A DNA stretch of 64,000 bases from Pseudoscleropodium purum (lineage: Eukaryota > Streptophyta > Bryopsida > Hypnales > Brachytheciaceae): positions 9,766,479 through 9,830,478 of the forward strand of contig OZ017800.1 in assembly GCA_963969395.1 (NCBI GenBank), read 5' to 3'. How positions within the stretch are numbered: position 1 is the first letter of the stretch; each line of letters opens with the position of its first letter. Both the position numbers and the translations under genes were made by a program. Below the pieces are notes generated by a model. The model searched no databases. It had not been told where the DNA came from and saw only the letters and a list, made by a program, of their open reading frames with translations. This document shows, piece after piece, positions 39,436-64,000 of the stretch.

Positions 39436-40731
39436 TGCCTCTGACATGTTGTTTCCATTCATCCGCCGAGCAATTTTTCAAATGGCATACTCTTCCGACT
39501 TACGTGAATACATCGGAATGACTTCCACATCTGCATCTGCTTTATGCAAATATGCAATACGTGGATCCACCCACCATCTCCTCTGCAAAGTTTGTTTCAT
39601 CTCATCTGCTGATGTGAATGTGTACAAAGACTACATTAGCCGAGAAGCTAAGGTGGTCATGCCCCAATCGCAAATTCCAATGTATACACGTGACTCATCC
39701 TCTGGAAAATGCAACAAGATGTTGTTCGGAGAAAGATCATTGTACAAATGTCCAGCAAGATGCACTGCATACATTATATGCATAAACGCCCATGTCAACT
39801 CCGTGCGCTTCTTCCGATATCGTCCTAAATGGTGAGCTTTTACAACCTCCTCTTCAGTTGGATTCGTATACATCAAACGGATTTGAATGTTGTCTGGAAA
39901 GTCCTTATCCATATTCAACATTTGTCGAAGAGCTCCACCATTCCACCAATATGCATAACTTTCACACATCGTTCTGTGCACCGCAGCAAACCGTATCACA
40001 CCCGCGTGTAGAATTCGAACAGCCACTGATTCAATTTGATGTTCTAATTTTGCAAGATTGGGTCGAGTTTGGTGGTGAATGGATTTCTTTGCCGCAAATT
40101 CCCAATGAGGAAGTATTCCTGGACATCCTTCAATACGGACCTTTCGAATCGTTGCATATTCACCTCTCATCATTCTGTCATCAACAGCAATCACGCGTGC
40201 TGTATCTGGAAGTGCTATGAGGTGACGTTTGGTCCTTTCCACTTAAACAATTCCATCATTGCTTTTCCACCAACCAATTGAACCAACTCGATTGTGCGTT
40301 TTGGCGAATGGAGCACATCGCCCCCTAAACAAGTCCGCTTTCAAAATCACTTCTTCAAACTGAACGTCATTGGATCGATATTCCTTGCCATATTTAACCA
40401 AAATGACTTTAGAATTCCACAAAGCGTCATGAACCTTGTTCTCCAAACATTTGGTGAAGTACGTTTCATGCATTTCGTCATGCCACTTCGCCACATTCAA
40501 TGCATCCAACAACATCTGTGTCATGTCTACCTTGAATTTAGACACGCACTCCTCTTGATATCTAATGTACTTATTGTCTAAAGACAATATTGTTTCTGAT
40601 TCATAAAATTGAACGATGCGATCGATCATGAATTTTTTGCATTCCTCCGAAGGACTTTGGCGAGCTACCTCCAAGTTTGATGGTCCCTCTCCATGTTTAA
40701 GCTTCGCAACCTTCTTCTTCCCCTTCGTCAT
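39436..40731 (-). pseudogene. Transposon-borne protein kinase, decayed copy
   Basis: Homologous to 11758-13251 from ATG at 40731 (MTKGKKKVAKLKHGEGPSNL). Stops: TAA at 40243-40245 and TAG at 39631-39633, both in the original frame (the second replaces a Lys codon). It keeps RGEYATIRKV, FAAKKSI, NDLSPNNILL and ICDWGM. Here the catalytic loop reads SPNN where copy 1 has SPDN, and the DFG position reads DWG. Sequence identity ends at about 39436, inside RRMNGNNMSE, so the last ~70 codons, the 3' array and the terminal repeat are missing. Confidence 0.8.
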
Positions 40732-40919
40732 CGTGACAAATGAAATTGATATAGATCAAATTTTTTAATTTGAAATTGAATTCACGCGCAAGTGTCCAAA
40801 AAATTGGCAACAAGGGGGCTCCAATAAACCACTTTTGCCTTGCCTCGGAAAGAAGCCAATGGAGGATGAACCACCAAGCTCTCCGCTCCACCTTGCATTC
40901 ACAAGGGGCAAAGCAAAAG

Positions 40920-41310
40920 TGACAATGCGGACGGCCTGTCCGCCCCATCGAACGGTCCTAAACCGTCCGCCCGATCGGACAGCCACGGGCGGACAAATCT
41001 GGCATCCACCCGATCAAACGGTCCGGGGGGCGGATGCATCGCTGTAATGGGGCGGTTAGGGCGGACACCGGTTCCGACGGACAGGGCGGACGGAGGACGG
41101 AGCGGACAGGGCGGACGCCGGATCCGACGGATAGGGCGGACGGAGGACAGGGCAGACGGGTATCCAGGCCGACGGGGCGGACAGGGCGGACGGCGGACAG
41201 GTATCGGGGCGGACAGGGTCTGGGCGGACGGGGGTCTGGGCAGATGGGACAGACGGGTATGAGGGCGGACGGGTACAAGGGCAGACGGGGCGGTTTGACC
41301 CTAAAGCGAC
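40920..41310 (-). repeat. CGGACG array upstream of decayed kinase
   Basis: Contains GCGGACGGCCTGTCCGCCCC, CCGCCCGATCGGACAGCCAC and many GGGCGGACGG units. The part next to the kinase is the reverse complement of the array at 63.9-64.0 kb. Open frames on both strands here are low-complexity artefacts. Confidence 0.75.
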
Positions 41311-41697
41311 CCTAAACTCATATTTTGCACGATAAACAAAGATCTTCATGGCACTGTATTGTTCAACTAACTTTTCATTCATTCAATGTAAAATTTGAAA
41401 TTAAAAAAGATAGCCTTCCTTTATGACCAAATATATGAATTCTTGGTAAATGATATTTTTGTACAAAGATATGACCTAAAATGTGCAAAAATTCACGAAA
41501 GGATTGCGACGTTTAATATATGTACCCAAATATTCATGTTGCATTGTGTATAAAGCAATTGTAAGAAGGTAGTTGAATAAAAATTCTACTATTAAATTGA
41601 ATTAGTTGACGTCTAATCACTTAGTAAACCGCTAAATGTCCAAGTCCTTGCAAGTGTGTTTTGGCTATCGAAAAAGAGCATGGACTTATAGTTATCC
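41311..41697. other. Spacer without gene between array and inverted-repeat arm
   Basis: AT-rich. It begins with CCCTAAAGCGACCCTAAACT, short telomere-like heptamers. It has no counterpart at the equivalent place near 61.26 kb, where the accessory gene module follows instead. This suggests a deletion or replacement. Confidence 0.5.
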
Positions 41698-44212
41698 CCA
41701 ATGAAGCAAATTGTTCTTTTTTCAAAATCTAATGGTATAGATATTTAGCCCCTAAAGTTCTTTTCACTAAAAACACTTCAAAGCTGCTAGTAGTAGTGCA
41801 AATATCAAGTCTTGGAAGAAAAATACTTTGGGGCATATGTAACCGTAGGATCTTGTAGTAAATTAATTGGAAAAGATGTGGAAAAAATTTTAGACAAATC
41901 CACCATTTGGATTGTAAGATATTAGATATTGAATGTTTTATTTAAGGGGGCTACTCAATTATGTCTATTAATGAACAATTGGTAGGCTAACAAACCTAAC
42001 TTAGCATGTATTTTAATATTTGTTGCAATTGTTTTAGGAATATTATAACATAATACTATTATAATATTCTTATAAATGATATGGTACTAAATCATTTCAA
42101 AATCAATAACATTCGAACACAATCTGTCAATCTTGTCTTCCATACTCCTTTAATGATATATATATATATATATAAACATATATACATACATAAAATATAT
42201 TAGATAAATCAACATGAACAAATCAATGATTATATATTTCATAGATCTATTCTTCATCAATCAAATAAGAGTGCATGTGCAAATATAGACAAAGATGGTT
42301 TCTCCATTTGTTCCCAAAAAATAGATAAACAAATAGAGAAAGATATGAAGTGAATGTTACTTGGAGAATTGGAAAGAAAGAAATTGAAGTACTCAATTGC
42401 ATTTTATTAAATTGGAAAATTGCATGTGGATGGCATGAATTAATCTTCATAGATGCTAAACTCATACGAGTTGCATTTCAACATTTATGATTTATGCAAT
42501 TGATTGAATTGAAATCTCTTGTAATTACATTTTCAAATTTTCGATTCAATCATTCAAATTTGCAAGAGTGATTTATGATAGATTTATAACTTTAAATGTG
42601 AAAGCATTCAATGCCTTTATGCGTTTGTTCATCAATATATTAATTTTAAATAAATAATATATATTTTTTATAACATATGCATAAACCATTGCATTAAAAA
42701 AATAAAAAAACTAAGAGCCAAGCCAAATAGGCTGGTCAAATGAAGAGAACAAGAGAATAAGAGCCCTACGAGACAGAAAACACAGGAAAATAAAGAAAAT
42801 ATCAAAAGGATTCAAAGGAAGGAGCAAGATGCATTCTTGCAAGACCGTAGAATACATAATGTGATAATGATTTCAAAATCCAAACACAAATATATTTTCT
42901 ATTTCAATGAGAGTCAAAAATGAACTACCCTGCTCTCAAAGATTGTACAATGTACACGTTATACAAAACGAACATATAACAGAAAGAGTAGAAGACATCG
43001 TTTATCATGATTGAAAACTGAAATGATTTTTTCTTTCTATGTAGAATATTTTATGAAATGTTACAATGTATTTAATTATTATAGTAATTGGTAGAAATCT
43101 TTGTGCAATACATAGAAACATTTCATTCATGTGGAATTTTTTCATTTATTTAGGATTAAAATTGAAGTATTATACTCTGCAAAGTACAAACCAAAAACAA
43201 TATCATATACGGATATACCTAAGTTCAAAAGTTTGGAATTGTTTCGTGAATTCATTTTGAAAACTCAAACGAAGAAATATTTTATAATCAATATCTTGTT
43301 CATTTGAATCATTTCAAAATTCGAATTCCGAATTCAATTCCTATTTATAATAGAAATTATGTTTGTCAAATTTTTAGATCTTTAAACAATGAACCCTCTT
43401 TTTTAAAATTAATATTTAAAAACATCTGAAATAAGAATATTGGAATTACCCTTCAAAATAAATATAGCACATGTATAAGTGTATAATGTATTCTACTCCA
43501 CCAACTCAAGTAACAAATTTTTCTATGTTTTTAAGGAAAAATATAGCCATACATGATTTGAAAGTTAAAACATTGATTCTTTTTCTTTGTTTTCAAATCT
43601 AATCAAAATTTCATTAAAAAATATGAAAGACTCGATGTTCATTTGAAGATCGTGATGCACTTTTAATGAGAAATCACAACCTTTCATTAAATATCATGAG
43701 GTTGAAATCCATTAAACTGTTATTCTAATTATGTATTGGGGCCTTTTTTTAAAATTTCATTTGCTTATGATGAAAAAGGAATTGATTATTTCTGCAAAAC
43801 ATTTGATTTCCTAATGAACTTTAAAAAAATCCCCACCATCTTCAGATCTTCTCAAAACCTATTTAGAAGGATAATATGAGTAAATAATTCAAACATATTC
43901 AACTTAACCACATTCCCCTCATTCGTAAAACAATTTAGGGGAGAAAAGAAAAGGTTTAGGGTAATTAGGGTTTAGGGTTTACATTTCTTTTAAAAATAAA
44001 ATGATAAATCAATTACATTGATCCTCATTTAGTAGTGATTATTAGGCTGTTTTGTTTTGGAAATGTTACCGCTCTTTTTGAGTAATATCAGCCTCTTAGG
44101 ATGCTCCAATGGACAGCTGGGCGGACGCTGTTGGCGGTTAGTGTTTAAGTGGGGCGGTTGGCGTGTCCAAAGCGCGGACAGCGTCGGAAGGCGCACAATG
44201 TGGACAGTCCCA
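41698..44212 (+). repeat. Left arm of a 2.5-kb inverted repeat
   Basis: Reverse-complement match to 58737-61254 over essentially its whole length. Examples: ATGAAGCAAATTGTTCTTTT at 41700 against the 61250 end; identical 72-codon chance frames on opposite strands at 42247-42465 and 60487-60705; GTGTTTAAGTGGGGCGGT at about 44142 against 58.80 kb. It is AT-rich with no gene, and its inner end runs into CGGACG array. Confidence 0.88.
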
Positions 44213-44310
44213 TCCGACCGCCCTGTCCGACCCGTCTGCCCTGTCCGCCCGCCCCCGTTCGGCCTGTCCGCCCGTCCGCTTCAGCCCCGTCACGGCCGTT
44301 TCTTGTTTTT
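44100..44310 (+). repeat. CGGACG/CCGTCCGCC array before transposase
   Basis: GC-rich stretch combining GGGCGGACGCTGTTGGCGG, AAGCGCGGACAGCGTCGGAA and CTGTCCGCCCGCCCCCG. The first ~110 bp belong to the inverted-repeat arm; the rest diverges from the 58.5-58.7 kb counterpart. Confidence 0.7.
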
Positions 44311-45134
44311 GAACGGAAATCCTAAAAATGAACCTTTAATTTTCTGGAGGGGACTATAAATGTTAAAAGAGAAGCTTTGGTATTCACTCTCGAAAAACCG
44401 AACGCTAAGATTTCCAAGGGCTATGAGCTTCAATTTATTGAGTCTCTTGCTTGGTAATGTATAGTTCGGTGGACGGGGGGGCTTTGATTTTCAAAGCTTT
44501 GTGTGACTAATTTCATTGATATTGTATACATTGTCACGTTGTGAGTTTCAAATTTAAAACATTCTATTGGTTTCTTTTGAAATTGAGGTAAAACATACAC
44601 TTGTCAGTATGGTGGCCAAATCGACGGGGGATTTTTTTCCTTGGTTTAGTGTGCAAGAGGGTGGTAAAGTAAAATGTAGGCTTTGCAAAGCGAGCATGTC
44701 AAGGAAGCTCAGCCGTATGTTCAGCCACTTAGGCTATTCTGGGCCTGGAGGTGTACGTGATAAAGGGGTGAGTCTTTTTCCACAATTATCAATGGCAGTT
44801 CGAGATTTATTTCGGCATTGCGAAGGAGTTTTTCCAAAACGTGTTGTAATGGACAATGTGGATGGCAACCCTGGCCCTTCAGATGTTCAAGAGTTTTTGG
44901 CCGGAAAGGCTGTGTCGCATTTTGACCACGAAGATTCTTGTTCAACGTCCAAAGAATTGGTATCAATAGTATGTGCCACAACTGAAATGACTTTGAGTAC
45001 GGAAGCTTCTGGTGAACGTGAAACCCCGAGGGCATTAAGTTCTAGGACTCAGAGGCAAGGCAGCTTAGTGAATGTGTTTGAAGAAGGTCATACACGCAAA
45101 TTACATTCAGTGTGGACAAATTTTTTTTATTCGG

Positions 45135-45139
45135 CGAAC
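45135..45139 (+). repeat. Target-site duplication CGAAC, left
   Basis: CGAAC at 45135-45139 lies just before TGTAGTC and is repeated exactly at 47310-47314 just after GACTACA. Confidence 0.93.
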
Positions 45140-47309
45140 TGTAGTCTAGCTTTTACGTTTTTATAGAACTTTTTCAATTTTCTATGACATTTCCTATATT
45201 ATTTATATATATTTTGAGTATTTAGTGTTGAAAAAGTCCAAAGTACACTAAAATATCCAAAAAGTAAAAAGATACTTTAGTAAGTAGCTACAAACTAATA
45301 GAAAATGGCAAAAAGGCAAAGAAAAAGTTAAAGTAAAAGAAAAAGGAGAAAGATAAAGAAAAAGCTGAGGTTAAAAGAAAAAGAAAATGCAAATTAGGGA
45401 TTTGGAGGTGTAAGCAGGAACATTGTGCTGGTCACGACGAGTTGCAACTTTTCCGATCACCCCCGAATTTCTGATTTAATCCCTCCCTTCTCTCTCAATT
45501 TCTCTCTTCCCCCCCGTGCTGTGTTATTACCCTTCGTTGTTCTTGCGCTATCTATTGTTTTTCGGTGCTGTTCATTGTTGTCAAAAGTGATGTAATTTTA
45601 CGTAATTTGTGCTGAGGAATAAAAATGCTGTTTCAATTATGCTGGTTTGAAATTGTGAATTGTGATTGTGTGCGTGTATGGATTTGAAGTTTTCAATCTC
45701 TAATGCCTCGCGTTGCAAGGAGTCTTGATTTGTGAGATTTGAGCGACTTCTGAGGGATTGGCGGATTGAGGGAATTTGATTGTTAGAGCATTATTCAGAG
45801 ATCGTGACAGCCTGCTTGCACATTGGATTACGAGTGCTGAAAAATTCCTTGTTGCACCGACGAAGGAGACATTGGCTTGAGCGAGCTGAGACCCCGAGCG
45901 GAGGTGACGCTTGATTGGGTGGTGGAACGGAGGAGCAAAGTGACTCGGTGAGTTTGGAGCATGATTTCGGAGAGAAACAGGGAGACTGATAGGAAGAGAA
46001 TCAAGGGCTGATTGACCAATTCGGCCAACAATCGAATTTCATTCGTCATTCTGGAAATTGGAAGATCGGCTGTTCAGGATTGTGAGACTGTTTACAAGAT
46101 TGCGAGATTGTTTGGTTGATCAAGTTGTTGTTACAGGGAGTTGTATCACAGCGCCGAGTCAGACCTCGGTGGAAGAAATTCAAAATTCAAATTCGTAATC
46201 TTCCTTGTGGATCCTCGTGTACGATTGATCAAGAGAACCAAGGGTTTGAAATTGGTTGTGAAATTAGTTTGATTTCGGTGTAGAAATTGCTAATTCGGTG
46301 ATCTATAGTGACAACTGAATTAGGGATTTGAATTGCAATCATCATCACAAACCAGGAATTGAAATTGGAATTCCGACTGGAATTGAAACCAAAAGGGAAT
46401 CGTGAGTTCAGTAAGTGCAATGAACTCGTGCAATGTGGTCAAAATTTGAGAAATTGAAGGAAAAAACTTGATCGCCGGAGGCAGCCTGCACGCCGAAGTT
46501 CAAGCGCGGACAGGCGCCGCTCAGGCAGACCGGCCCGCCCTGGGATACCCGCCTCGATTTTCCGATACCCCTCTCTGATTGATAACCGGACCGGGTTTTC
46601 CGATTGATACCCGTGAGGAAACCAGTGAGGGTATCAACCGGGTATTGACCGGGTACCGCGGTTTTGGATGTTTTAAACTAAACGTTCAATTAAAACAAAT
46701 TTAAAATAAGGTCCAAATTTTTCAAACGGCCCTTGGGCCGTGATCCCTAATTGGGAATTAGATTTAAAATTCTATTAATTATTTTGTATTAATTACTATT
46801 AGAATCTGCATTGAAATTACATATGTATGAAGTAAATTTGAATTTTGGGAATTGTAGGAATCGATTAATCCATGTATTGGCCAATATTGGCCCTAGAGTT
46901 GTTGAGGGGCAACCCATTGTAAGACTTTCTAAACCCTTAAACTCTAAAATTTAGGGAAATATTAAATACGTATAATTGTACTATTTTCAAAGTACTATAG
47001 TGGGCTGTACTAAAGTCTAAGTCCTACATTGCATCCATACACAAGTCAGTCCAACTTGACATATTGTCCAGACGTATTGTCTTGAGCCCTAGAACACTAG
47101 ACAAGATAGGGATATGCATACTGAGTCTTTTATCTTATAATGGACTGTTTCTTGGGGTATTTAGTGGGAATAAAAAGGAATTTTTATTCTATCTTCAAAA
47201 CTTAAGTACAAAGTGACATTTGAATACACTACACTAACCTTACATAGATCATTCCCTGGTATTCGAACTTGGTAGCGTTTGGAATAAGGATTCCCAAAAC
47301 CTGACTACA
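45140..47309. mobile_element. 2,170-bp TG...CA insertion, probable solo LTR
   Basis: Begins TGTAGTCTAGC and ends CTGACTACA, a 7-bp terminal inverted repeat (TGTAGTC/GACTACA) with TG...CA ends and an exact 5-bp duplication. Removing it with one CGAAC restores the transposase frame exactly. No substantial ORF, primer-binding site or polypurine tract is visible. The interior holds a C/T-rich tract near 45480-45520, a region with CCGGGTATCAACCGG-type short repeats near 46580-46660, and AT-rich sequence. The best reading is a solo LTR left by recombination between two LTRs; strand is undetermined. Confidence 0.85.
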
Positions 47310-47314
47310 CGAAC
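47310..47314 (+). repeat. Target-site duplication CGAAC, right
   Basis: Exact second copy of the 5-bp duplication; codon AAC (47312-47314) resumes the transposase frame. Confidence 0.93.
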
Positions 47315-50300
47315 ATACCATTTTCCGTGGCTCGAAATCCAGCTTTTAAAGAAGCAGTGAAGAAAACGGCTGCGTTTGGTAGGCCATACATTCCTCCCTC
47401 ATACCACGACCTTCGGTACAAATTGTTGAATGAGGCGAAGACCAACATTCAAACACAGTTGAATGCACGAACCGAAGACAACATTCGAAAATTTGGAGCA
47501 ACATTGTCCATTGATGGATGGAGCTCAGTGACTAATCGACCTCTCATCAATGCCATGCTTGTATCATCCGCAGGTGAAGAATTTCTTGGATCTGTGGATA
47601 CAAGTGGTTGTGAAAAAAATGTGGAGTACTTGGCAACTGTGTTGGAAAAGTTCATTGAACAAGTGGGGTCCAAGAACGTCGTGTTAATAACTACGGATAA
47701 TGCTCTCGTAAATCCGTCCGTATGGGATGTAATATCTATAAAATATCCTCATATTTTTTACCAAGGGTGCGTGGTAGATGCATTGAATTTGTTGTTGAAG
47801 GATTGGGCTGCACAGAAATGGATTGCTTCCAAATTGGATAAAAGAGTTCTTGTAGCTAAATTTATCAAGAAGAGACATATGCCGCTAGCTCTATTGCGAA
47901 AGTATTCGCCAAATCTTGGTCTCTTGATGCCTGGGGATACAAGGTTCGCCTCTAAATTTATCATGATGGAGCGTTTGACAAAATTGAGAGGAGCATTGAA
48001 ACAAACGGTGGTAGATCCGCAATGGGTTGAGTATGTACATACTCTCAAGAAGAAACGTGGAGCCAAAGTCCAACCAAAAGACTTGGCCTTAGCGGTGAAG
48101 AAAATTGTTCTTGATGACCATTTTTGGAATCGATCGATCAATTATGTGGAGATGGTTGAACCAATCATATGTGCACTTCACGATTTGGATTCAAAATCAC
48201 CATGCATGGGGAAGGTGTTGCATATCATGAGGAAGTTAGAGAAGCACGTGAATGGATTACAAAGTCCACCATTTTGTTTGCTAGAAGAACTTGCAATTCC
48301 ATTGGTACAGTCTTTTTATGCCCGAAGAAGAATGGTGGACAACGATCTCCAATCAGCCGCAGCTCTTTTGAATCCATACCTTCTTCATGACAAAGAGCTA
48401 GCGGATGACGCAGATGCAATGTCAGGATGTAAGAAAGTTTTGGAGAGAATATGTAAACCGGATGAATATGCAGCAGTGATGAAGGAATTTGTAGCTTTTC
48501 GACACAAGGAACCTCCATTCTACAATATGTTGAATCCGGGAGATCAAATGTTGTCCGCACATGCTTGGTGGGATTTTGAAGGTGCATGTGGCAAGTTTAT
48601 AGCTCCATTAGCGAAGAGGATATTGGCTCAACCGGTGTCATCATCTTCATGTGAACGGAATTGGAGCAACTATTCTTTTGTTCACAACAAATCTCGAAAT
48701 AAATTGAAGCCGAAGAGAGCAACGAATTTGGTGTACGTATATACCAATTCCAAAGTATTAAATGCATTGAAGGAAAAAGATGAAAAAAAATGGTATAATG
48801 ATAATGTGGATTCGATGGAATCAGAGGATTCAGATAGGCCGACGTTAGAAGATGATGATAACAAGGATTTGGAAAGGGCCCTTTCAACTGTAGATGGTAG
48901 GGATGACTTCAATCATGCGACAACATGGGGAGATGAAGACGTTATGGAAGGCTTTCCCGATTTGGTGAATGATATGCATGATTATCATCTAAACCGCAAG
49001 GATGTTGTTCCCGACAATGCAAACGATGCATATACCTTTTGTGAAGACGAGGACAATGTAGGGGTACAGGAGAATCTACCTTCTATAACTGCATATTGCA
49101 ATGAAATGGGATTCTTGAATAGCGAAAACATTCTATCGGAAAAGGCAAACGCTATTGCCAAAGAGGTGAAAATCAATGAGAATGCTATTGGTGATGATGG
49201 GAGAAATGAAGAAGTTTTAATTTCTCAATCTCCATCCATGGTATTAAATGTAGTGCAAGGAAATGACAAAAGAGAAGATGCGGTCATGGAGGTGGATGTT
49301 CCAAAAGATGTGGGCAACAATAGTGGTGATGAGGGGGAACCAAATATTGCGGTATAGAAAAATAATGATATACTTGGGATGGCAGTCACAAATTCGGCAA
49401 TTGTGAAGAGTGATAAAGGAAAAGAGCCAATGAAGTCAATTTTTGAAATACCGAGATCTAGTGCTCTTCCACCAATACCGTTGAAGTCTGTTAGCACACG
49501 ATTGAATGATTCTCAGAGCTTTGGATATGGAAAACGCCTAATGAACATTTCCAAAGAAATTTCTACAGGCGGTAATCTACGGAAAGTAGCATCATCACCT
49601 ATAAGCCTAAATGATACGGATAGTGATCGGATGCCATTGGCATCTTTGCGTGATCACATTTTAGGAAAAGGAATGGCGCAAGAACCCACCAAATCAACAA
49701 ACGGTACTCTATTACTTCAAAAGAAAGGCAAAGTGGAGATAACTGTTCATGGACATGTCGACCCTACATCGAGATTGATGGTTCAAGAATCTAGTAACGT
49801 GAAAGCGAAAAGAGAAATGCAACCTTTTGCTATCTCTCCAGTGAAGAATAGGACCCCTCTTGATGAAAATGTTGCTACTTTGTCAAATAGAAAGAAAAGA
49901 AAGGTTCCTATTCAAAAAGCCTTTAATCGTTTTGTCAAAGTAAAAAAAAAAAAAATTAAATTCGAAAGAAAGGAGTAAACCTACTTCGAGAAAAGACTTG
50001 AAGGAGACAACGATACTTGATTCCAACAATGAAGATGACTCCGACAATGAAGATGACTCTGATAATGAAGATTTTGAACGGAGAGCTGCAAGAGAGAGTA
50101 GTGGGGCTGAGGTTAAAGGAGATGCAGATTGGCGTCCATAGGAATTGTGGAGATGTGAATTTAGATGTTTGATTGTTTAGTTGCTCATGATATATGGAGC
50201 TCATGTTGACAAATGACAATGGTTTCTTCAATCATTTTATTATAAAATTGTTTGTTTATTAATGATATACATCTCGTTGGATTTTAAAGTGATTTTGTTT

Positions 50301-54381: not shown

Positions 54382-54612
54382 CAGGGTTGACGAATTTCAA
54401 CGTCCGCCCTAAAATAGCGTCCGTTTTTCGGACGTCTGGACGCACGAACGCTAGCGGACGCAGCGTCCCTCCTGCCGTCAGAAGGCGGACGCGCGGGGCG
54501 GGGTGGACGGGCGGGGTGGACGGGCGGGGCGGACGGTAGGGGCGGATGGTAGGGGCAGACGGACGGCGCGGTCGGGCGTACAGACCAGACGGGGCGGACG
54601 GGGCGGACTTCG
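54382..54612 (+). repeat. Left terminal repeat and CGGACG array
   Basis: CAGGGTTGACGAAT leads into ACGTCCGCCCTAAAATAGCG and TCCGTTTTTCGGACGTCTGG, then GGGGCGGGGTGGACGGGCGG-type array. This is nearly identical to the start of the 343-bp element at 16790. Confidence 0.82.
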
Positions 54613-54910
54613 CATTGCCATTAGTCATTAGAAATTTTTTTATTGTTATGTAATTTGAATGTTATACAATCAAAAATGAATGCATCCACGTAAAATAAGA
54701 TGTACATATAAAAATATTTTTATACGCAAATGAAAATATAGCATCTTTATATATAAATATATATGTATAAACAAAATACATGAAAACATAGTTCCAACAT
54801 CACTATTGAATCCTATACGATCTTTTTAAGATCTAAATCTTTCACATTCTTTTTTGTTTTTAAACAATGAAAGGACCATTGTTTTTAAAAAACAAAATTC
54901 TCCTCAAATC

Positions 54911-57900
54911 CTACTTTCCACCGGATGGACCACTACCTTCTCCCAAAACAAAAGGAAAATCTGCTGTACCGAGGAGTTTAGCAGATGATTGACGAATTGA
55001 CCGTTGTTGACTTGGACGGACTATTCGCCCTCCAGATTGAACTTCGATGTTCACCTTATGAAATTGTTCCTTGGTTTCCGGAGAGAAGTCATCGTCCTCT
55101 TCACGCTTCCTTTTTTGTTTTCTTTTCGGTGATAAATCAACTTCGTCTGCCTTCAAGGTTCTCAAGTTGCTCTCCACACGATCTACCATCGCTTGAACAA
55201 CTTCATCATCTCCTTTCCCTTGCCATACTGTGAGGCAGTCTCCATCCAATAGGAAAGCCTTCCAATGCCCTATAATATCGCCAATGCGCCTATCAAATGC
55301 TGCTGCCACATCTACAAATGAATGTCCTGTGCTTGTTCGTCCATTTGTATCGTAGACAGCACGAACTTTTGCAGCCTCTTCCAACTTCGACAATAGAAGG
55401 GCCCTACCTACGAGGGTGTCGTCGTATGCCTTATACTGCTCATCAAATTCTTTTCCATGGTTCACCTCCACCCAACTGTCTTCTAGTCCTCTCTCCACTT
55501 TTTTATCTGGAAAAAGAAAGAACTTTTCGTGTTGCAAGCTCCAATGTCCCCCCATGTTGCGACAAAACATTTCACGGGCCGCGTCATCTACGATTCCTCG
55601 AGCCCGCAATTCCACCTCTCTATTGTGAGTCATCCACACATCCAAATTCAATGGTTGCTGAGATTCCTCGTACAAATCATGCCTTTGTTCATTTGCATTC
55701 CACCGGATTGGCTTCCCCCAATGTTGATAATTTTGAAATTTGTACGGCGCTTGATCAAGTGGAAGATTCCAACGATTGTACTCGTGGCCTGGAGGCATAG
55801 CTTCCAAGATACCAAACATTTCGTAGAACCTAGCACTCAATGGACTACGACACTCGGCACACACCGAACGAATGAGTGATGCTTTTACAATGCAAATGAC
55901 ATGGAAAGTGTGGCAACATTGGCCCATGGTTACCGCACCTTCCAGTCCGAAGAGGTCTTGGCAAAGGCTACAACAACCATCCAAGATTGGAGAGGCTGGA
56001 TCACAAGCATGCACCACTCGCTTATCTTTCACATTGATGTGTGCTGAAAGTGTGTTGTAAGGGACCCATCCTTCCTCTACTTCCAAGGCCCAATTGATGG
56101 GTGGAGCTTGGTCCTTCTTTGTGTGGTTTAACCGCTCAAACATGGCATCCATGTCTCCCCAACATGTGATCTCCGTATATCCCTTTGAAGGATGTTGGTC
56201 AAACATAGTCTTGAACCAACTCAAAGAGTTTTGAATGGCATCGCAATTTTCATTCGACTCCATTGCCAATGTTTGAAGACCTGCCATTGCTTGAGATACT
56301 ACAGAGGGTCTGTCTTGGAGTCTTTGTACCCATGCTAACCATCGAGACTCCAAGCCGCTAGATGGCATAAACTTCTTCAAATCCAAGTACAATTGCAATC
56401 GATTCAACTTGGATTCAACGATTCCTTTTGCTTCAATTGCCTCCTCCAATTTATGCTTCAACTCTTCAAAGTCACAACTCTCTGTTTGCGTCTCCGCATT
56501 CACGTAAACGGATGAAAGCTTTTCCATTGATGGTTGTTGTGTCGCTTTTAACATGCTCATGTCGTGACTTTCTTATACATTCACAATGGCAAGATTGTCG
56601 CTTGCTTCAGCCTTATCAAAAGGAAGAGAGAGCTTATCTTCACTCTCTTGAGTCTCTTGACTGTCTCCGAGTACAATCACTGGTGAGATTGCAACCTCAC
56701 TTGGATTTTTGGAGGTCCCTTGCAATTCTGCAATCCGTTTACGCATCTTCATCAACTCCTCCATTTGCCTCGATGATTGTTGATTTAAATGTTCAACCTC
56801 ACTCTCCGAAGTCTTTAATTTCAACTCCAACACTTTGCACCTTGCTTCCACTCCTTCAAGGTCAGCAATTTTCTTCTCATATTCCACCAATTGTAGTATG
56901 TGAAAATCTCTTTCTTCGAAAAGTGGTCGAAAAGTCTTCGTGAGATTCTGAAATGCTGTAGCACCTTTCAACATCTCTAGTGCTATTAAAGAAAACTCCT
57001 TGGCCAAATTCATAAAAGTCGGAGCAGCTTTCGCTAAAAATTCAACTGACATCGTTATCTTGAAAGCTGTATCAAGTATATGTGCAACATCCTTTGGATT
57101 TGTAAGTGGACTCATTGGAACAGTAGTAGCACCATCATCGGGGTTGGACGATCCGCCTATTTCTTCATGAAGGTAAGCAAACTGAACCGAGAGCTTCAAA
57201 AGATTTTCCAATTGTTTTGAATTGAACATGTCTTGCATGGTTCGATATAGAGGACTCGGCAATGCCGCTGTAAACGGAAACTCCTCCGCCCGCCTTTTAC
57301 GCTCGGAACTCCATAATGAGGATATATTATCAATCGTCACGCCTTGTCCACGAGGCGTATGTACTTTGTCTCCTAAACTTAACGCTAAACTAGATTCAAC
57401 GCCTTAATGCATAGGCGGAGATTTGTAGACCAAACTATCAAAACAATTGTTGTCTATCAGACTATCAATTGTAGCATTAGCCTTTGCCACTTTCTCCGCC
57501 AAAACTTCGTCTACTTTACTTTTTGAAGTTTCCCCACGTTCCGTGCAAACCTTGCCTTTGTTTACAAACTCCGTTTGCGTTTGTGCCGCAACATTTGGTG
57601 TAGAGGTCAAACGCGTTGGAGCTGTGGAAAAGACTTCAACCTCCTGCGCCTCTACATCTTTCTCCACATCTTTCCCCACATTTTTCGAAGAGCTTTCATT
57701 GATTGCTTTTGTTAGAGATTGTACAGACCGTAATTCTTCAACATTTGAGGCTTTCTCCACACCATCCGTTTTCACCTCAATAGTATTTTTTAATACTTTT
57801 TCTGTTTCTCCCTCAAAATTGTACAAGTCGGGAATGTCCTTTTGATTGGCTTCAAGTAGAAGTGGGCAAGCTGTTGTTGTCGAAAACGTGCTCCAATCAA

Positions 57901-58318
57901 TCTTGCGCTCTAATATAAGTTCCGCGTAAACCATACACGCCACGCTATAATTAATATAGCCTTTGCTTCTGCGCTTGTTTCCGAATAGAACACGCCACAC
58001 CTCCTCAGATCGATGGACAAAATGTTTGTTGTTGCAAGTCCATGGTTTACAACAAAAATCCCGTGTATGACTCCTGTGCGACTCCTAAGGCCACAACTTG
58101 TCAATGTGGTACATTTTAACATAGGTCCTGCACATTTTTGATGTCCAATACTCCGCATCTTCATCTTCCCATCTGCTCTCTGCTTTAATTGTAGGGTCAT
58201 TTAAAATGTCGAGCCGAAGGTCATGCGTAGCCCCCTTCACTTTGCTCTTTTTCTTCGCTTCGCTTCCCGGAGTCACCCCATCCACATTTCGATCACCTTC
58301 GTCATTCACGATTGTCAA
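54911..58318 (-). pseudogene. RING-H2 / coiled-coil cargo protein with three in-frame stops
   Basis: One reading frame from about 58318 down to TAG at 54911, interrupted only by stops at 58085 (TAG), 57404 (TAA) and 56573 (TAA). No in-frame ATG is seen at the start; ATGACGAAGG near 58303 lies one frame off. Order: lysine-rich start; WTSKMCRTYVKMYHIDKLW motif and a VACMVYAELILERKIDW block, both shared with the accessory protein; a Ser/Thr/Glu-rich linker; coiled coils (EGVEARCKVLELKLKTSESE). The last 549 codons are uninterrupted and hold a canonical RING-H2 (C197-x2-C200-x14-C215-x-H217-x2-H220-x2-C223-x10-C234-x2-C237), then a basic KRKQKRKREEDDD tail. RING domains usually recruit E2 enzymes, so a ubiquitin-ligase role is the inference. 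Confidence 0.65.
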
Positions 58319-58504
58319 TTGGATTCAATAACCAATTGAAGTGAATAAAAAAATCTCACGTGATAGTCAAAAGTGATGGCATCAACCGTAACACAGTAAC
58401 AAAAAATAGAGGACCCCAACTCTCCACCCCGTAGGAGCAACTAGCGCATAAAGCAATAGTAGCACATCCAACTTGGCACCGAAAGAGAATTGAGGTGAGA
58501 AGAA

Positions 58505-58800
58505 ATGAAAAGTCACTCCACCCTTATAGCCGTCCGTCGTCGGACCTGCCCCGAACCGCGCGAAGCGGCCCCGAACCTCGCCGTCCACCCGTCGCCCCGT
58601 CCGACCAACCTGACCAACCGACCCGTCCAACCGAGCCGCCCGCCCGACCTGTCCGACCGACCTGACCGACCACCCCGTCCGATTGCCCCGATTGACCGCC
58701 CTGTCCGACCGCCCCGTCTAACCTGCGCGTCCGCCCGGACTGTCTGCATTGTCCGCCTTCCGACGCCGTCCGCGCTTTGGACACGTCGACCGCCCCACTT
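58505..58800 (-). repeat. CGTCCGCC / GGACGG array next to RING cargo
   Basis: C-rich on the plus strand: CCGTCCAACCGAGCCGCCCG, CCGCCCTGTCCGACCGCCCC and similar units. The part from 58737 on belongs to the inverted-repeat arm. Arginine/glycine-rich open frames across it are by-products of the repeats. Confidence 0.72.
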
Positions 58801-61254
58801 AAACACTGACCGTCGACAGCATCCGCCCAGCTCTCCATTGGTGCATCCTATAAGGCCATTATTATTCAAAAAAAGCGGTAACATTTCAAAAATAAAACAG
58901 CCTAATATTCACTGCTAAATGAGGATCAATGTAATTGGTTTGTCATTTTTAAAAAAAAAAAATGTAAACCTTAAACTTATACCCTAATTACCCTAAACCT
59001 TTTCTTTTCTCCTCTAAATTGTTTTACGAATGAGGGGAATGTGGTTAAGTTGAATATGTTTGAATTATTTACTGATATTATTCCTCTAAATAGGTTTTGA
59101 GAAGATCTGAAGATGGTGGGGATTTTTTTAAAGTTTATTAGGAAATCAAATGTTTTGCAAAAATAATCAATTCCATTTTCATTGTAAGCAAATGAAATTT
59201 TAAAAAAAGGCCCCAATACATAATTAGAATAACAATTTAATGGATTTCAACCTCATGATATTTAATAAAAGGTTGTGATTTCTCATTAAAAGTGCATCAC
59301 GATCTTCAAATGAACATCGAGTCTTTCATATTTTTTAATGAAATTTTGATTAGATTTGAAAACAAAGAAAAAGAATCAATGTTTTAACTTTCAAATCATG
59401 TATGGCTATATTTTTCCTTAAAAACATAGAAAAATTTGTTACTTGAGTTGGTGGAGTAGAATACATTATACACTTATACATGTGCTATATTTATTTTGAA
59501 GGGTAATTCCAATATTCTTATTTCAGATGTTTTTAAATATTAATTTTAAAAAAGAGGGTTCATTGTTTAAAGATCTAAAAATTTGACAAACATAATTTCT
59601 ATTATAAATAGGAATTGAATTCGGAATTCGAATTTTGAAATGATTCAAATGAACAAGATATTGATTATAAAATATTTCTTCGTTTGAGTTTTCAAAATGA
59701 ATTCACGAAACAATTCCAAACTTTTGAACTTAGGTATATCCGTATATGATATTGTTTTTGGTTTGTACTTTGTAGAATATAATACTTCAATTTTAATCCT
59801 AAATAAATGAAAAAATTCCACATGAATGAAATGTTTCTATGTATTACACAAAGATTTCTACCAATTACTATAATAATTAAATACATTGTTACATTTCATA
59901 AAATATTCTACATAGAAAGAAAAAATCATTTCAATTTTCAATCATGATAAACGATGTCTTCTACTCTTTCTGTTATATGTTCGTTTTGTATAACGTGTAC
60001 ATTGTACAATCTTTGAGAGCAGGGTAGTTCATTTTTGACTCTCATTGAAATAGAAAATATATTTGTGTTTGGATTTTGAAATCATTATCACATTATGTAT
60101 TCTACGGTCTTGCAAGAATGCATCTTGCTCCTTCCTTTGAATCCTTTTGATATTTTCTTTATTTTCCTGTGTTTTCTGTCTCGTAGGGCTCTTATTCTCT
60201 TGTTCTCTTCATTTGACCAGCCTATTTGGCTTGGCTCTTAGTTTTTTTATTTTTTTAATGCAATGGTTTATGCATATGTTATAAAAAATATATATTATTT
60301 ATTTAAAATTAATATATTGATGAACAAACGCATAAAGGCATTGAATGCTTTCACATTTAAAGTTATAAATCTATCATAAATCACTCTTGCAAATTTGAAT
60401 GATTGAATCGAAAATTTGAAAATGTAATTACAAGAGATTTCAATTCAATCAATTGCATAAATCATAAATGTTGAAATGCAACTCGTATGAGTTTAGCATC
60501 TATGAAGATTAATTCATGCCATCCACATGCAATTTTCCAATTTAATAAAATGCAATTGAGTACTTCAATTTCTTTCTTTCCAATTCTCCAAGTAACATTC
60601 ACTTCATATCTTTCTCTATTTGTTTATCTATTTTTTGGGAACAAATGGAGAAACCATCTTTGTCTATATTTGCACATGCACTCTTATTTGATTGATGAAG
60701 AATAGATCTATGAAATATATAATCATTGATTTGTTCATGTTGATTTATCTAATATATTTTATGTATGTATATATGTTTATATATATATATATATATATCA
60801 TTAAAGGAGTATGGAAGACAAGATTGACAGATTGTGTTCGAATGTTATTGATTTTGAAATGATTTAGTACCATATCATTTATAAGAATATTATAATAGTA
60901 TTATGTTATAATATTCCTAAAACAATTGCAACAAATATTAAAATACATGCTAAGTTAGGTTTGTTAGCCTACCAATTGTTCATTAATAGACATAATTGAG
61001 TAGCCCCCTTAAATGAAACATTCAATATCTAATATCTTACAATCCAATTGGTGGATTTGTTTAAAATTTTTTCCACATCTTTTCCAACTAATTTACTACA
61101 AGATGCTACAGTTACATATGCTCCAAAGTATTTTTCTTCTAAGGCTTGATATTTGCACTACTATTGACAGTTTTGAAGTGTTTTTAGTGAAAAGAACTTT
61201 AGGGGTTAAACATCTAGACCGTGAGATTTTGAAAAAAGAACAATTTGCTTCATT
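58737..61254 (-). repeat. Right arm of the 2.5-kb inverted repeat
   Basis: Reverse complement of 41698-44212, with scattered substitutions and small indels. AT-rich and gene-free. Its outer end is followed at once by GGTTTAGGGTTTAAG (telomere-like) and a CGGACG array. Confidence 0.88.
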
Positions 61255-61267
61255 AGGTTTAGGGTTT

Positions 61268-61560
61268 AAGATGAGCCGTCTGCCCTGTCCGTCCGATCTA
61301 GCGTCTGCCTTGTCCGCCCTGTCCGCCCCGTCCGCCGTGATATCCGTCCGCTCGTCCTCCGTCTTCCGTCCGCCCCGTCCTCCGTCGGCCCAGTCTACCC
61401 GATCCGGCGTCCCCCCCTGTACCCATCCGCCTCGGTATGGCCGTCCGCCCAATTACGGCCGTCCGATTGACATGCGGACTGATGTGGTCCGCATGATCTA
61501 GACGTCCGCCTCGGGGCGTCCGCATATATATATGGGGAGGCGGACGGCTCATTCCGAACA
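61268..61560 (-). repeat. GTCCGCC array upstream of accessory gene
   Basis: CTGTCCGCCCTGTCCGCCCC, CCGTCCGCCCAATTACGGCC and GGGAGGCGGACGGCTCAT. A short TATATATA follows at about 61526, roughly 230 bp before the accessory ATG, and could serve as its promoter. Confidence 0.65.
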
Positions 61561-61756
61561 ATCGTTCTCTTTTGGAGTAGGCGGATCAGTGCATTGGAAG
61601 CTCTGCGCGCCCCTTCCGCTTCGAGTGAACGATTGTTGTGGCATTGTTACAAATTTTCACAAAGTTCACGCTTGTAAAATTTTAATTAATTAATTAAATC
61701 AAAATTTTGATTCTTAAGCTTTCTAATTGTTTCATTCTCTTTGCTTCGGCTTCATC

Positions 61757-63020
61757 ATGCCGAAAGATAAAACACCCAAAAAAAAGTAGTCGAATGGAAA
61801 GACCCCAATTGTTCGATTGGGATGCTTGGGGCGATCCATTGTGCGTGGGTGAACCGGGATGGGAAGAAGAACCAACAGGAGTGTGGGATTGCTCAATGTG
61901 CAAGAAATATGTGAAAATGACTCACATTCAAAAACTTTGGCGACGTGACCGTGTAGAGCACCAAGCGCCACGTTGGGAAGGACAAATGTCTATGTGCCAA
62001 AGTGAGCACTTCAAACAATGATACACACAAGTGCATCGAGTTCTTGGCATTAAAAGCGCCAAACCAAATATAATGAATTATAATGTTATGGCAATGGTTT
62101 GGGCAGAGATTGTACTCCACAAGGACGTGGACTGACATACCGCTACAGGTCGCAATCTGGAGAACTATACGCGCACGGATGCCGTTATAGATACACAGTG
62201 GAGGGGTGCAAGCGATTGCATGCCAGAGTGGTCTAATCGAGGTTATCTACAACAACCTTCAGTTGTTCTATGAAATGCTGAAGATGCGTGGACAGATAAC
62301 GATGATGACGATGATATGCAAGCGCCTCTCACATTTGGAGTTAGGCACGAGCGGGTAGAAGAACGAGAACCAATTGAATTCGAACAACAAATGCAAGAGG
62401 CAACACGTAGAAGCCTTCAAGATCGTGGACGGCAAGATAGGCATGGTGAATCCTACGGTCATGAACATGGAACGCGAGAATCTGAACAAGGAAGAGGTGG
62501 TTCATACTCTGGTTACGATCCTCAAAATAGATACGAAGGTGGAAGAGGGAGCTATGGATTCACGCATTATGGTGGTTCAAGTGCAGTTGGTTCTCGTTAT
62601 GGCACTCCCCCTGAAATTGGCTCTCTAGGTGGAACAGGTAGCTATGGCAACACGCACTATGGTAGGTCTAGTGGATCTGATTCATATTATACGACGCCCA
62701 CTCAAGTGGGCTCCGAAGGTAGTGGAGGAAGCCATGTAACCCCGCAGTATAGTTGCTCTCTTCACGGAAGCGCCCAATACTATCCGGGATCAATTAGAAG
62801 TGATTCATACGGGTATCATGGGGCCTCTTATTACGGGTCTTCAAATGAAAGAGGATCAGAGCCTACTACTCTGGTTCCTCCTCCCACTTTTGGAGGTTCA
62901 AATTATGGACAAGGAGGTGCACCGAGTGGATATCACGAAAACTACGGAGGTGGTCTGTTCATTGGAGTACAAAGAAGAGGCAACGGTCAACAATTTGAGT
63001 CCGATTCAGATTCCGAATAA
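61757..63020 (+). pseudogene. Accessory protein with Cys/YVKM motif and prion-like tail, copy 2
   Basis: ATG at 61757 (MPKDKTPKK) is followed by a run of 8 A that shifts the frame; the rest lies in the frame that contains 61707. N-terminal domain: DWDAWGDPLCVGEPGWEEEP, VWDCSMCKKYVKMTHIQKLW, then a MVWAEIVLHKDVD block shared with the RING cargo protein. Stops TGA at 62019, about 62133 (where the RING cargo has Trp) and 62268 (copy 1 has CGA) break it. From 62316 the frame is open to TAA at 63020: EPIEFEQQMQEATRRSLQ (UIM-like) and the Gly/Ser/Tyr-rich tail, ending RRGNGQQFESDSDSE. The longer of the two copies and the only one with the N-terminus. Confidence 0.6.
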
Positions 63021-63619
63021 AAAAACATGCAAGTATATAGTGAGCATGTGTTTGCTCGATTTTCTCATTTTTACTCTCACGACAAGTATAGAGCACTAGA
63101 TTGGTAGAAGTAGTACAAAATTTTAAATGAATAGAACAATTTTGAACAACAATTTTGTTCACTTTTTCAAAAAGTGTTGTGTAATAGTCTACACCAAGTA
63201 TGTATGTAGGCAAGCATGTTGTTGAAGACATCATTGTATTATTTTATAATAGCGTTGATGTATACGGCTATAAGCGACTTTGATAAATAATAAAAATCTG
63301 AAAAAGAAATGTAACTTTGTAAGAGCCATATTATGTCTATTTTTGAATTTAGCATTCGAGGTTAAATATGTACTAAACTACTAGCATGGTGTATATTTTG
63401 AAATTATTGTTGTGTGTTTATTACATTTACAAACTCGTAAATGGTATAAATGTATTTCTAATTAATTTATGAAAGATTGAATTATTTGAATATTTGAAAT
63501 TTTGAAATTTTTCATTCAACGATTGCTAAAACTAAAATGATTTCTTATTCGTATGAAGAAATGCCCAAATTAGACAATTAATGGTTCTTCTTTAGATTCT
63601 ATTTTCAAATATGAAAAAT
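63021..63619. other. AT-rich 3' spacer of accessory gene, copy 2
   Basis: Nearly identical to 10745-11340. No gene is seen. Confidence 0.7.
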
Positions 63620-64000
63620 AGATCGGATCGGGCGGACGGGGCTCGAGGGTTTCGGAGAGGTAGACGGCCGATGCGTCCACCAGCCGCGGCCCGTCTGATC
63701 GGACGGACGGTTTGGGGCCGTCCGCCGCGACCTGTTGGATCGAGCGGACGCCAGATTTGTCCACCCGTGTCCATCCAATTGGGCGGACGCAGCTGTAGGG
63801 TTTTGGGGAGGCGGACGGCTGATGCGTCCGCCAACCGCGGCCCGTCCGATCAAGCGGACGGTTTGGGTCCGTCCGCCGCTGCCCGTCGGATCGGGCGGAT
63901 GGCAGATTTGTCTGCCCGTGGCCGTCCGATCGGGCGGACGGTTTGGGGCCGTCCGGGCCCCAATAAGATGGGTGGACGGGCCGTCCGCATTGTTACTTTT
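63620..64000 (+). repeat. CGGACG array upstream of a predicted kinase (cut by window edge)
   Basis: Two partly duplicated blocks, each with GGAGAGG/GGGGAGGCGGACGG, CGGACGGTTTGGGGCCGTCC and GGGCGGACG units. The end, GGGCCGTCCGCATTGTTACTTTT, matches the sequence just before TGCTTTGCCCCTTG at 11575 in copy 1. The next ~180 bp there lead to the kinase ATG. Confidence 0.75.

Follow-up and report, generated by a model that had tools for sequence, protein, structure and literature searches.

A multi-gene hAT transposon family with two long element types in the moss Pseudoscleropodium purum

To our knowledge, plant hAT elements normally encode a transposase only. VANC-type anti-silencing proteins of the Arabidopsis VANDAL elements (Mutator-like) are thought to act via short motifs clustered in the non-coding parts of the element. 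From a moss, Ceratodon, a DNA transposon lineage named Lanisha was reportedly described by Maumus, McDaniel and Carey in 2020. In the sections of PMC12730594 drawn on here, Lanisha is placed near EnSpm, within a group whose ends are mostly CA..TG and whose duplications span 2-5 bp. The same sections present fungal DNA transposons bearing TET/JBP genes, among them hAT7 and IS3EU families that code for alpha-kinases; these carry extra enzyme genes, gene order is conserved among some families, and an escape from methylation-based silencing is proposed (PMC12730594).

We analysed a stretch of 64,000 nucleotides of P. purum (OZ017800.1, positions 9,766,479 to 9,830,478), hereafter the window, together with the 313-Mb genome of the same species. 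Three copies in the window, A, B and C, belong to one DNA transposon family of the hAT superfamily. The anatomy of this multi-gene family and its past mobility, as read from the DNA, are almost certain. No such element was described in the titles and abstract openings of the papers listed, for several topics the first 12-20 of many, a coverage that excludes subscription papers and Repbase.

Three copies in the window

A sequence-only reading of the window had described repeats, termini and genes shared between partial copies, and self-comparison recovered them. The AT-rich segment at 41697-44210 matches 58737-61257 inverted (97%), the kinase at 39438-40949 matches 11541-13051 inverted (95%), and the accessory gene at 62202-63638 matches 9926-11363 (98%); the termini at 54382, 50625 and 16790 align across 72-142 bp at 80-90%. 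The features are listed below, arrays being delimited by motif clustering and the start of the copy B RING gene by eye.

9926..13824, + strand: copy A, the right-hand portion of an element assigned to the R-type from its accessory gene; on the + strand it holds the 3' accessory part, an array (11397-11551), the kinase, the R-terminal array (13721-13809) and the R-end at 13824
11758..13251, + strand: kinase of copy A, uninterrupted reading frame of 497 aa
16790..17132, + strand: short L..R derivative of the family, 343 bp
39438..50625, - strand: copy C, T-type (kinase and transposase), with its L-end at 50625 and a break within the kinase at 39438
39438..40736, - strand: kinase of copy C, truncated, 3 in-frame stops
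40928..41270, no strand: array upstream of the copy C kinase
41697..44090, - strand: AT-rich segment of copy C, from self-comparison
44122..44278, no strand: array upstream of the copy C transposase gene
44609..50141, + strand: copy C gene for the hAT transposase, with the N-terminal part at 44609-45139, DUF659 and hAT dimerisation domains at 47312-49357, and the C-terminal part, in broken frames, reaching about 50141
45140..47309, no strand: 2,170-bp TG..CA insertion, solo-LTR-like, with 5-bp duplication CGAAC, splitting the copy C transposase gene
50500..50625, - strand: array and L-end of copy C, from self-comparison and motif clustering
54382..64000, + strand: copy B, R-type (RING, accessory gene and kinase), L-end at 54382, running off the window
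54382..54471, + strand: L-end of copy B (CAGGGTTGACGAATTT...), from self-comparison and end search
54402..54608, no strand: CGGAC/GTCCG array at the copy B L-end
54911..58309, - strand: copy B gene for the RING/coiled-coil protein, split into an N-terminal part and open frames at 54911-56572, 56573-57403 and 57404-58084
58532..58772, no strand: array 223 bp upstream of the copy B RING start
58850..61260, + strand: AT-rich segment of copy B, common to both element types
61287..61545, no strand: array 211 bp upstream of the copy B accessory start
61756..63020, + strand: copy B accessory gene with a disrupted frame, RING-shared N-terminal domain and G/S/Y-rich tail
63633..63987, no strand: array 197 bp upstream of the copy B kinase start

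The kinase module of copy B continues for ~1,857 bp beyond the window end and is then broken by another repeat. No R-end of copy C was found within the window. The insertion in its transposase gene is missing from the corresponding place in three other elements (E023, E029, E031). The arrays of CGGACG type proposed earlier are real: 33 of 39 CGGAC/GTCCG motifs in copy C and 49 of 55 in copy B (including the part beyond the window end) fall inside arrays, against 9.4 (copy C) and 11.8 (copy B) motifs in all in mononucleotide shuffles. They sit at element ends and, for 6/6 genes measured, 192-331 bp upstream of gene starts set by eye.

Two long element types across the genome

Whole-genome pattern searches gave 2,532 L-end matches (1274+1258) versus 8 (6+2) in the control, and 2,013 R-end matches (1013+1000) versus 0+0. 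The two ends are distinct, yet both start with CAGGGTTGAC, as short terminal inverted repeats of CAGGG/TAGGG type. The termini put forward as paired queries in the earlier reading, at 54382 and 50626 (50625 here), are both of the L kind; the second end type, the R-end, lies at 13824, away from the coordinates given there. As that reading had anticipated, many loci carry both ends, 8-bp duplications and a fixed internal order, with more than 100 long elements of 8-12 kb in two versions. Among 12 complete long elements, the last read by eye, the 8-bp target duplication matched at 8/8 bases in 7, at 7/8 in 1 and at 6/8 in 2; it was absent from E031 and from the element at about C47:1106335-1114194. 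Eight of these 12, E020 and E029 not among them, gave 8/8 in 5 cases and 7/8, 6/8 and 3/8 in 1 each. Examples are E020 (R-type, 12,144 bp including a nested 313-bp short element, complete, ACTTTGTA on both sides) and E029 (T-type, 10,233 bp, complete, TTTACATT on both sides).

The termini bound long elements too, though 37 of 40 sampled exact L-ends pair with their own R-end at 191-351 bp; of the remaining three, two belong to long elements and one has no R-end partner other than that of a neighbour. Target duplications of short elements (n=38) matched at 8/8 in 27, 7/8 in 7 and 6/8 in 2, and 2 were unmatched. Having the same ends and target duplication as the coding element, these short derivatives are hAT MITEs. 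The short pair at 16790-17132 showed no target duplication (1/8 bases match). Short elements and other repeats are also nested inside long copies.

The T-type (~8-10 kb) carries kinase, AT segment and hAT transposase. The R-type (~12 kb) carries kinase, accessory gene, AT segment and RING gene, without transposase. Genes point outward from the central AT-rich segment: on the R-end side lie kinase and accessory gene, on the L-end side transposase or RING. The earlier reading had predicted a hAT family of very large size with a swappable slot, and at about 12 kb for one type this is what we find. The single gene order assigned to all copies has to be replaced by two different ones: copy C lacks the accessory gene, which travels with RING and is not part of the common frame in which it had been placed.

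Initial genome candidates (kinase, 1,542; transposase, 1,132; AT segment, 1,018; RING, 843; accessory, 498) are not copy numbers, and gene-pair geometry was scored on the best-scored copies only, taken from these longer sets and lying <=15 kb apart. Kinase and accessory gene were at -1.12 to -1.34 kb on the same strand in 14/15 pairs. On opposite strands were kinase and RING (11/14 pairs at -8.2 to -8.5 kb), accessory gene and RING (17/21 at -6.2 to -7.0 kb) and kinase and transposase (7/10 at -5.3 to -5.6 kb). Between 0.30 and 0.65 pairs were expected at random for these combinations. Accessory-transposase and RING-transposase pairs occurred once each among the best-scored copies, both times as the window neighbours B and C; in these copies and the 7 analysed closely, the two long architectures were not found mixed. 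Kinase and RING genes are not mostly found away from the termini: by end pattern, without shuffled control, 19 of the 20 kinase copies chosen for their score have an R-end downstream, one lacking it at the expected place, and an L-end lies downstream of 17/17 RING and 3/3 transposase copies.

Encoded proteins and history of the copies

A hAT transposase had been placed in the slot of one copy, and Pfam agrees: DUF659 (PF04937, 4.4e-30) and hAT dimerisation (PF05699, 1.1e-8) match copy C at about 47288-49357, and the N-terminal part (44609-45139) has a weak BED match below cut-off. Transposase frames are stop-free over up to 1,155 aa in the query region, with a C-terminal extension beyond the Pfam domains, and dN/dS was <1 in 6/6 pairs (0.44-0.68). 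In the AT-rich segment of copy B, the single frame of at least 150 aa overlapping its end (61013-61501) has no Pfam match.

Sequence matches of the window kinase are weak in Pfam (0.0012, below cut-off) and in the PDB (best E 0.051), so its identity is drawn from homologues and predicted fold. The predicted structure (pLDDT 82.9) matches 1,096 PDB chains at E<=1e-3; TM-scores by query length are low (0.28-0.37), in part because of an extra N-terminal domain. Residues K215, D332, N337 and D355, which we take to be the VAIK Lys, HRD Asp, catalytic Asn and DFG Asp, are invariant in 31 aligned sequences, with HND and CDW instead of HRD and DFG. With catalytic residues and fold present, the protein is predicted to be of the eukaryotic protein kinase type. 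All 21 pairs had dN/dS <1 (0.28-0.70). In-frame stops occur in 6/7 analysed copies (all but A) and in 53/86 scored copies, so that in this genome the family is dead, at least in part. Among the few kinase homologues named out of 62 matches there is no angiosperm; P0022 and P0037 are from Ceratodon, and since they are listed as ordinary proteins of that moss, moss kinase counts may be inflated by transposons. The P0037 cluster has 126 member sequences, some possibly the same protein from several databases. Kinase relative P0034 and hAT relative P0094 come from ENA contigs that are both 27,639 bp long, their linkage being judged by equal size only. In a viral contig collection the kinase profile gave 27 pattern stretches, of which 0 were confirmed, and the 16-base L pattern was present in eight contigs, by our own estimate about chance level for that collection size. 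A match of ~42 residues to an Erythrobacter contig (E 9e-5, genome contig search) was also judged to be chance.

For the putative RING-H2 protein of the earlier reading, a relative, P0069, matches PF13639 above cut-off (34.8 versus 27.3), but the window copy itself is a weak match (E 0.003-0.02) below the curated cut-off. RING protein P0063 is 97% identical, and further relatives in other data are 33-77% identical. The frame is broken in the window copy and in E020; the 549-aa query region is stop-free in 20/79 scored genome copies, counted by eye, and the longest frames reach 1,137 aa. For RING, dN/dS was 0.51 in the one pair computed, and the structure prediction, poor at pLDDT 43.1, was set aside. 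The accessory protein shares a domain with the RING protein N-terminus (E 1.5e-16). Its 248-aa tail is 40% G+S+Y and 50% G+S+Y+Q+N, and the other 181 proteins compared have at most 29% G+S+Y; the label "prion-like" fits by composition and no further.

In 7 kinase copies C-to-T changes affect 38% of CG, 31% of CHG and 21% of CHH sites, versus any change at 4.7% of A/T sites. This decay suggests that the copies were once methylated, which makes past silencing plausible; it could also inflate apparent synonymous change and lower dN/dS.

Scored same-gene pairs <40 kb apart, including the B/C pair of the window, were inverted in 22/22 cases and direct in 0; a duplication spanning several genes enters this count once for each gene. 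E029 and a neighbour 4.1 kb away are 99.98% identical across 9,903 bp, with unrelated flanks and about the last 110-170 bp at the R-end differing, a pattern that an assembly fold-back artefact would not produce in this one pair examined. We read the similarity as gene conversion between inverted neighbours. Type-specific descent was rejected for the kinase (RING-type monophyly, AU p 0.0009), whereas the AT segment did not reject it (AU p 0.34 and 0.38). The kinase tree groups copies B (R-type) and C (T-type) at 100%, and conversion between these inverted neighbours may explain the result entirely. A further caveat on that tree is the abundance of parallel-prone transitions among kinase copies.

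A possible division of labour, its rivals and known systems

Overall, the best explanation, and a reasonably probable one, is a multi-gene hAT family with a division of labour between T-type and R-type and with cargo directed at the host or at the transposase. The T-type transposase (weak BED match, DUF659, hAT dimerisation) would bind the CGGAC-rich ends and move T-type, R-type and short elements alike. The R-type would then be a coding but transposase-dependent partner, and its mobilisation in trans is very probable. Upstream arrays might bring the same DNA-binding protein to promoters and so co-regulate or de-silence the genes. The kinase of both types and the RING/accessory pair would act on host or transposase proteins, relieving silencing or timing transposition, with the common N-terminal domain perhaps serving for docking; slots would be exchanged through homologous recombination or gene conversion between copies. 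That kinase and RING counteract silencing or otherwise act on the host has, to us, somewhat less than an even chance. A more tentative picture is a cooperative two-element system, set in a host whose homologous recombination is very active: the T-type would give the transposase, the R-type the RING/accessory pair with its common docking domain, and both the kinase; CGGAC arrays would couple transposition and expression to one element-coded DNA-binding protein, gene conversion would reshuffle modules, and the whole would amount to a counter-defence kit.

Kinase, RING and accessory protein might instead be cofactors of the element's own transposase, acting on its timing, stability or complex assembly and not on host silencing. 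The T-type does retain the kinase alongside a transposase with long frames, whose C-terminal extension is a possible substrate; the RING/accessory pair, however, was found only in transposase-free elements and so travels apart from its supposed partner, and we consider this account rather unlikely. It is improbable that R-type elements are selfish passengers whose genes are mere remnants, only the T-type mattering. They lack a transposase, and neither the window copy nor E020 has an intact RING frame, but the stop-free RING copies, the frames to 1,137 aa, the relatives in other data (P0063 among them) and the dN/dS of the single RING pair speak against it.

The stops in many copies would suit a passive capture of host genes (Pack-type transduplication) with no role for the element. 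Complete reading frames in a fixed order at many loci and dN/dS <1 in every computed pair make this very improbable, as do the named kinase matches (two from Ceratodon, no angiosperm) and the equal-sized contigs of P0034 and P0094. That unrelated repeats became nested by chance, kinase and RING lying outside the element, deserves hardly any credence: such nesting of short elements and other repeats is indeed seen within long copies, but the geometry is fixed far beyond random expectation (0.24-0.65 pairs), 39/40 gene copies have an end at the expected distance and, decisively in our view, complete elements have target duplications.

This hAT lineage has retained a kinase that bears marks of selection in both long types, and has divided its other tools between the two. 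The kinase common to both suggests that elements pack proteins for dealing with the host, not just for moving. Should silencing be a target of the kinase or of RING, mosses, with their easy gene targeting, would offer a direct test of DNA transposons fighting host defence with signalling enzymes. VANC/VANDAL offers an analogy, an element-coded protein (here putative) combined with clustered short non-coding motifs, but superfamily and protein both differ. Lanisha is likewise a DNA transposon lineage reported from a moss; being near EnSpm with 2-5-bp duplications according to the sections cited, it differs from the hAT family with 8-bp duplications. The fungal TET/JBP transposons, as presented there, are also DNA transposons, hAT included, carrying extra enzyme genes. 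They live in another host kingdom, the moss kinase has a predicted protein-kinase fold, no TET/JBP match was found among the scanned frames of the moss family, and its two-type system with RING is not described for them in those sections (PMC12730594). With the hAT superfamily (Ac/Tam3-like) and hAT MITEs the moss family shares the transposase with DUF659 and hAT dimerisation, CAGGG-type ends, 8-bp duplications, motif arrays at the ends and many short derivatives; it differs from them in that both long types encode a kinase and one of them a RING/accessory pair, in the arrays upstream of internal genes, and in having a transposase-free type with three protein genes.

Ends in the window and genome-wide

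The window corresponds to C44:9766479-9830478 of an assembly of 313,191,705 bp in 52 contigs. Its self-comparison bore out the repeated units that the sequence-only reading had claimed, and close reading of the termini distinguished two end types, L-end and R-end, which gives the elements an L to R orientation. The following were located in the window.

54382 (+), 50625 (−) and 16790 (+): L-ends, CAGGGTTGACGAATTT...
13824 (−): R-end, CAGGGTTGACACGACGTCCGG...
17132 (−): R-end, decayed
Copy B: left part of an element
Copy C: element broken within the kinase
Copy A: right part of a third copy, with accessory gene
Short derivative, L-end to R-end: one

Other repeats were also seen. One, at 4365-8002 and 9592-9925, has terminal inverted repeats of about 334 bp (319/334 bases, TGTCGCAGCACAGGGCAGGTC...); one of its ends adjoins copy A at 9925, where the accessory gene is broken, and this end also interrupts the copy B kinase past the window. 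An AT-rich tandem array (86-bp unit, about 8 copies) lies at 34883-35582. Reading frames on the + strand at 36293-38858, shortly ahead of the broken copy C, include a DUF7869 match (37399-37962, +, 4e-35) and are possibly another mobile or repeat gene.

In the genome, the L pattern (at most 1 mismatch) gave 1274+1258 matches versus 6+2 for the reversed control, and the R pattern 1013+1000 versus 0+0. Short elements were sampled with 40 of the 42 exact L-ends listed on C1, C1:5668102 and C1:42820618 being left out; the former (within locus L025) has an R-end at 295 bp and an 8/8 duplication. An R-end was found within 960 bp of 38 of the 40, for one of them (L045) solely via its neighbour's R-end. 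The 37 with their own R-end delimit elements of 191-351 bp, so that the majority of the sample bounds short elements. Target duplications among the 38 matched at 8/8 positions in 27, 7/8 in 7 and 6/8 in 2, the last 2 being unmatched. The remaining two sampled L-ends belong to long elements, which together form one inverted pair.

Gene linkage and long elements

Two long architectures were read from long loci encountered during L-end retrieval.

E020, R-type, C1:2421485-2433628: total length 12,144 bp, of which a short element takes up 313 bp; order from the R-end to the L-end: kinase, accessory, AT segment, RING; target duplication ACTTTGTA at both flanks
E029, T-type, C1:6383051-6393283: total length 10,233 bp, of which a short element takes up 273 bp; order from the R-end to the L-end: kinase, AT segment, transposase; target duplication TTTACATT at both flanks
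E031, T-type: 10,078 bp, contains a nested short element; no matching target duplication when the flanks were compared

A further locus, E023, was traced only as far as its transposase. Copy B and E020 are R-type, and copy A represents the right-hand portion of an element carrying the accessory gene; copy C, E023, E029 and E031 are T-type, and all four lack that gene. The single gene order that had been proposed thus fails for copy C. The transposase gene of copy C carries a 2,170-bp TG..CA insertion (45140-47309, 5-bp duplication, solo-LTR-like); at that site the transposases of E023, E029 and E031 are unbroken.

Linkage was then assessed independently of the ends. Genome searches scored the best 86 of 1,542 kinase, 79 of 843 RING, 65 of 1,132 transposase, 40 of 498 accessory and 40 of 1,018 AT-segment candidates; 39 AT places were used, both parts of the split match C40:29476018-29477739 being dropped. 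Among scored copies, pairs within 15 kb stood at a fixed offset and strand in 14/15 cases for kinase-accessory, 11/14 for kinase-RING, 17/21 for accessory-RING, 7/10 for kinase-transposase and 6/8 for transposase-AT segment, with 0.24-0.65 pairs expected at random. A single accessory-transposase pair and a single RING-transposase pair turned up, in each case formed by the window neighbours B and C. Since RING and transposase copies lie in separate elements, we infer that the scored lists alone represent more than 100 long elements.

In the DNA 3′ of the kinase copies ranked 2 to 21, the R-end was found 455-604 bp beyond the end of the kinase query in 19 of 20 copies. The L-end was present downstream of all 20 copies inspected, 17 RING and 3 transposase; 12 of the RING copies came from ranks 2-16, excluding rank 7 and also ranks 5 and 10, which served as partners; the other 5, with the 3 transposases, were partners of the tested kinases. 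The genes sampled are thus mostly found with the termini, contrary to one outcome that would have spoken against a giant family. Eight elements with both flanks showed duplications of 8/8 (5 elements), 7/8, 6/8 and 3/8 (1 each). With E020, E031, E029 and the latter's inverted neighbour (flanks TTCGTAAA and TTTGTAAC, 6/8 by eye) added, the set comprises 12 long elements, with 8/8 in 7, 7/8 in 1, 6/8 in 2 and failure in 2; in these samples the termini therefore do not bound short elements only.

Neighbouring elements had a marked orientation: all 22 same-gene pairs less than 40 kb apart (scored copies) were inverted and none direct. In the pair examined, C1:6383051-6393283 and C1:6397427-6407598, 9,903 bp align at 99.98% identity, but the flanks are unrelated and the R-terminal arrays differ. 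From this one pair, our reading is that the likeness would reflect gene conversion between inverted neighbours; that direct neighbours were removed through recombination is a guess. The kinase tree grouped R-type B with T-type C and rejected R-type monophyly (AU p 0.0009), which the AT-segment trees did not reject.

Encoded proteins, selection and decay

The kinase of copy A is a stop-free frame of 497 aa, and 33 of the 86 scored copies (best 86 of 1,542) are stop-free. It has 62 homologues, 15 of them distant (25-34%); the sole plant names among the matches are two Ceratodon purpureus proteins (46%, 41%), on which basis the host would be a moss or moss-like plant. Lys215, Asp332, Asn337 and Asp355 are invariant (alignment, n=31). 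The predicted structure (pLDDT 82.9) resembled protein kinases in fold, with 1,096 PDB chains at E≤1e-3 and TM-scores by query length of 0.28-0.37 among the 50 matches listed; no close family emerged from the structure search, and matches to viral proteins were just as general. The Ceratodon purpureus kinase relatives P0022 and P0037 are listed like any other moss protein; 126 member sequences make up the cluster of P0037, whose record is on a 110-Mb contig (locus tag KC19_VG055000).

For the RING protein 18 homologues were found, the best at 97% across half of the query, and in the relative P0069 the RING domain exceeds the Pfam cut-off; the query region is stop-free in 20 of the 79 scored copies (by eye; best 79 of 843). 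The N-terminal part of the accessory protein, taken from E020, matches the N-terminus of the RING proteins P0069 (E 1.5e-16) and P0063 (7e-14), 2 of the 181 proteins given for comparison; its tail is 40% G+S+Y. This common N-terminal domain suggests that the RING and accessory proteins have a partner in common. The transposase has 101 homologues, and its query region is stop-free in 21 of the 65 scored copies (best 65 of 1,132), with frames of up to 1,155 aa. One hAT relative and one kinase relative each lie on an ENA contig of 27,639 bp, an equality of length which suggests kinase-hAT linkage elsewhere.

Pairwise dN/dS was 0.28-0.70 for the kinase (21 pairs), 0.44-0.68 for the transposase (6 pairs) and 0.51 for RING (1 pair), below 1 in every pair, with neutral decay mixed in and a possible bias from C-to-T change. 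Seven kinase copies showed 189 transitions versus 26 transversions at two-state sites; C-to-T (or G-to-A) change affected 38% of CG, 31% of CHG and 21% of CHH sites, and any change 4.7% of A/T sites. In five AT segments the values were 32%, 25%, 8% and 4.9%. This pattern is the trace expected from methylated, silenced DNA, selection and composition also differing between sites.

Arrays and comparison with known systems

CGGAC/GTCCG motifs occur in clusters in E020 (79/84), E029 (60/64) and E031 (64/68), nested short elements counted. The arrays are located at the element ends and, in the window copies, ahead of the start codon by 192-331 bp in 6/6 genes measured, the copy B kinase start being just beyond the window edge. 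Because arrays stand both at ends and upstream of genes, we propose that a single element-coded DNA-binding protein would act on both ends and promoters. The kinase and RING proteins have two leading candidate targets, namely silencing factors and the element's own transposase.

Judged by its transposase, ends and target duplication, the family is hAT. Passages of PMC12730594 describe fungal DNA transposons, some of them hAT, that bear TET/JBP genes, in some families with conserved gene order, and fungal IS3EU elements that bear alpha-kinase genes. The likeness of the moss family to the fungal TET/JBP transposons, as described there, is that of DNA transposons, hAT included, with extra enzyme genes. 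Four features are new relative to these known systems: the host is a plant, both types carry a protein kinase, a RING/accessory pair takes the place of the transposase, and arrays lie upstream of internal genes.
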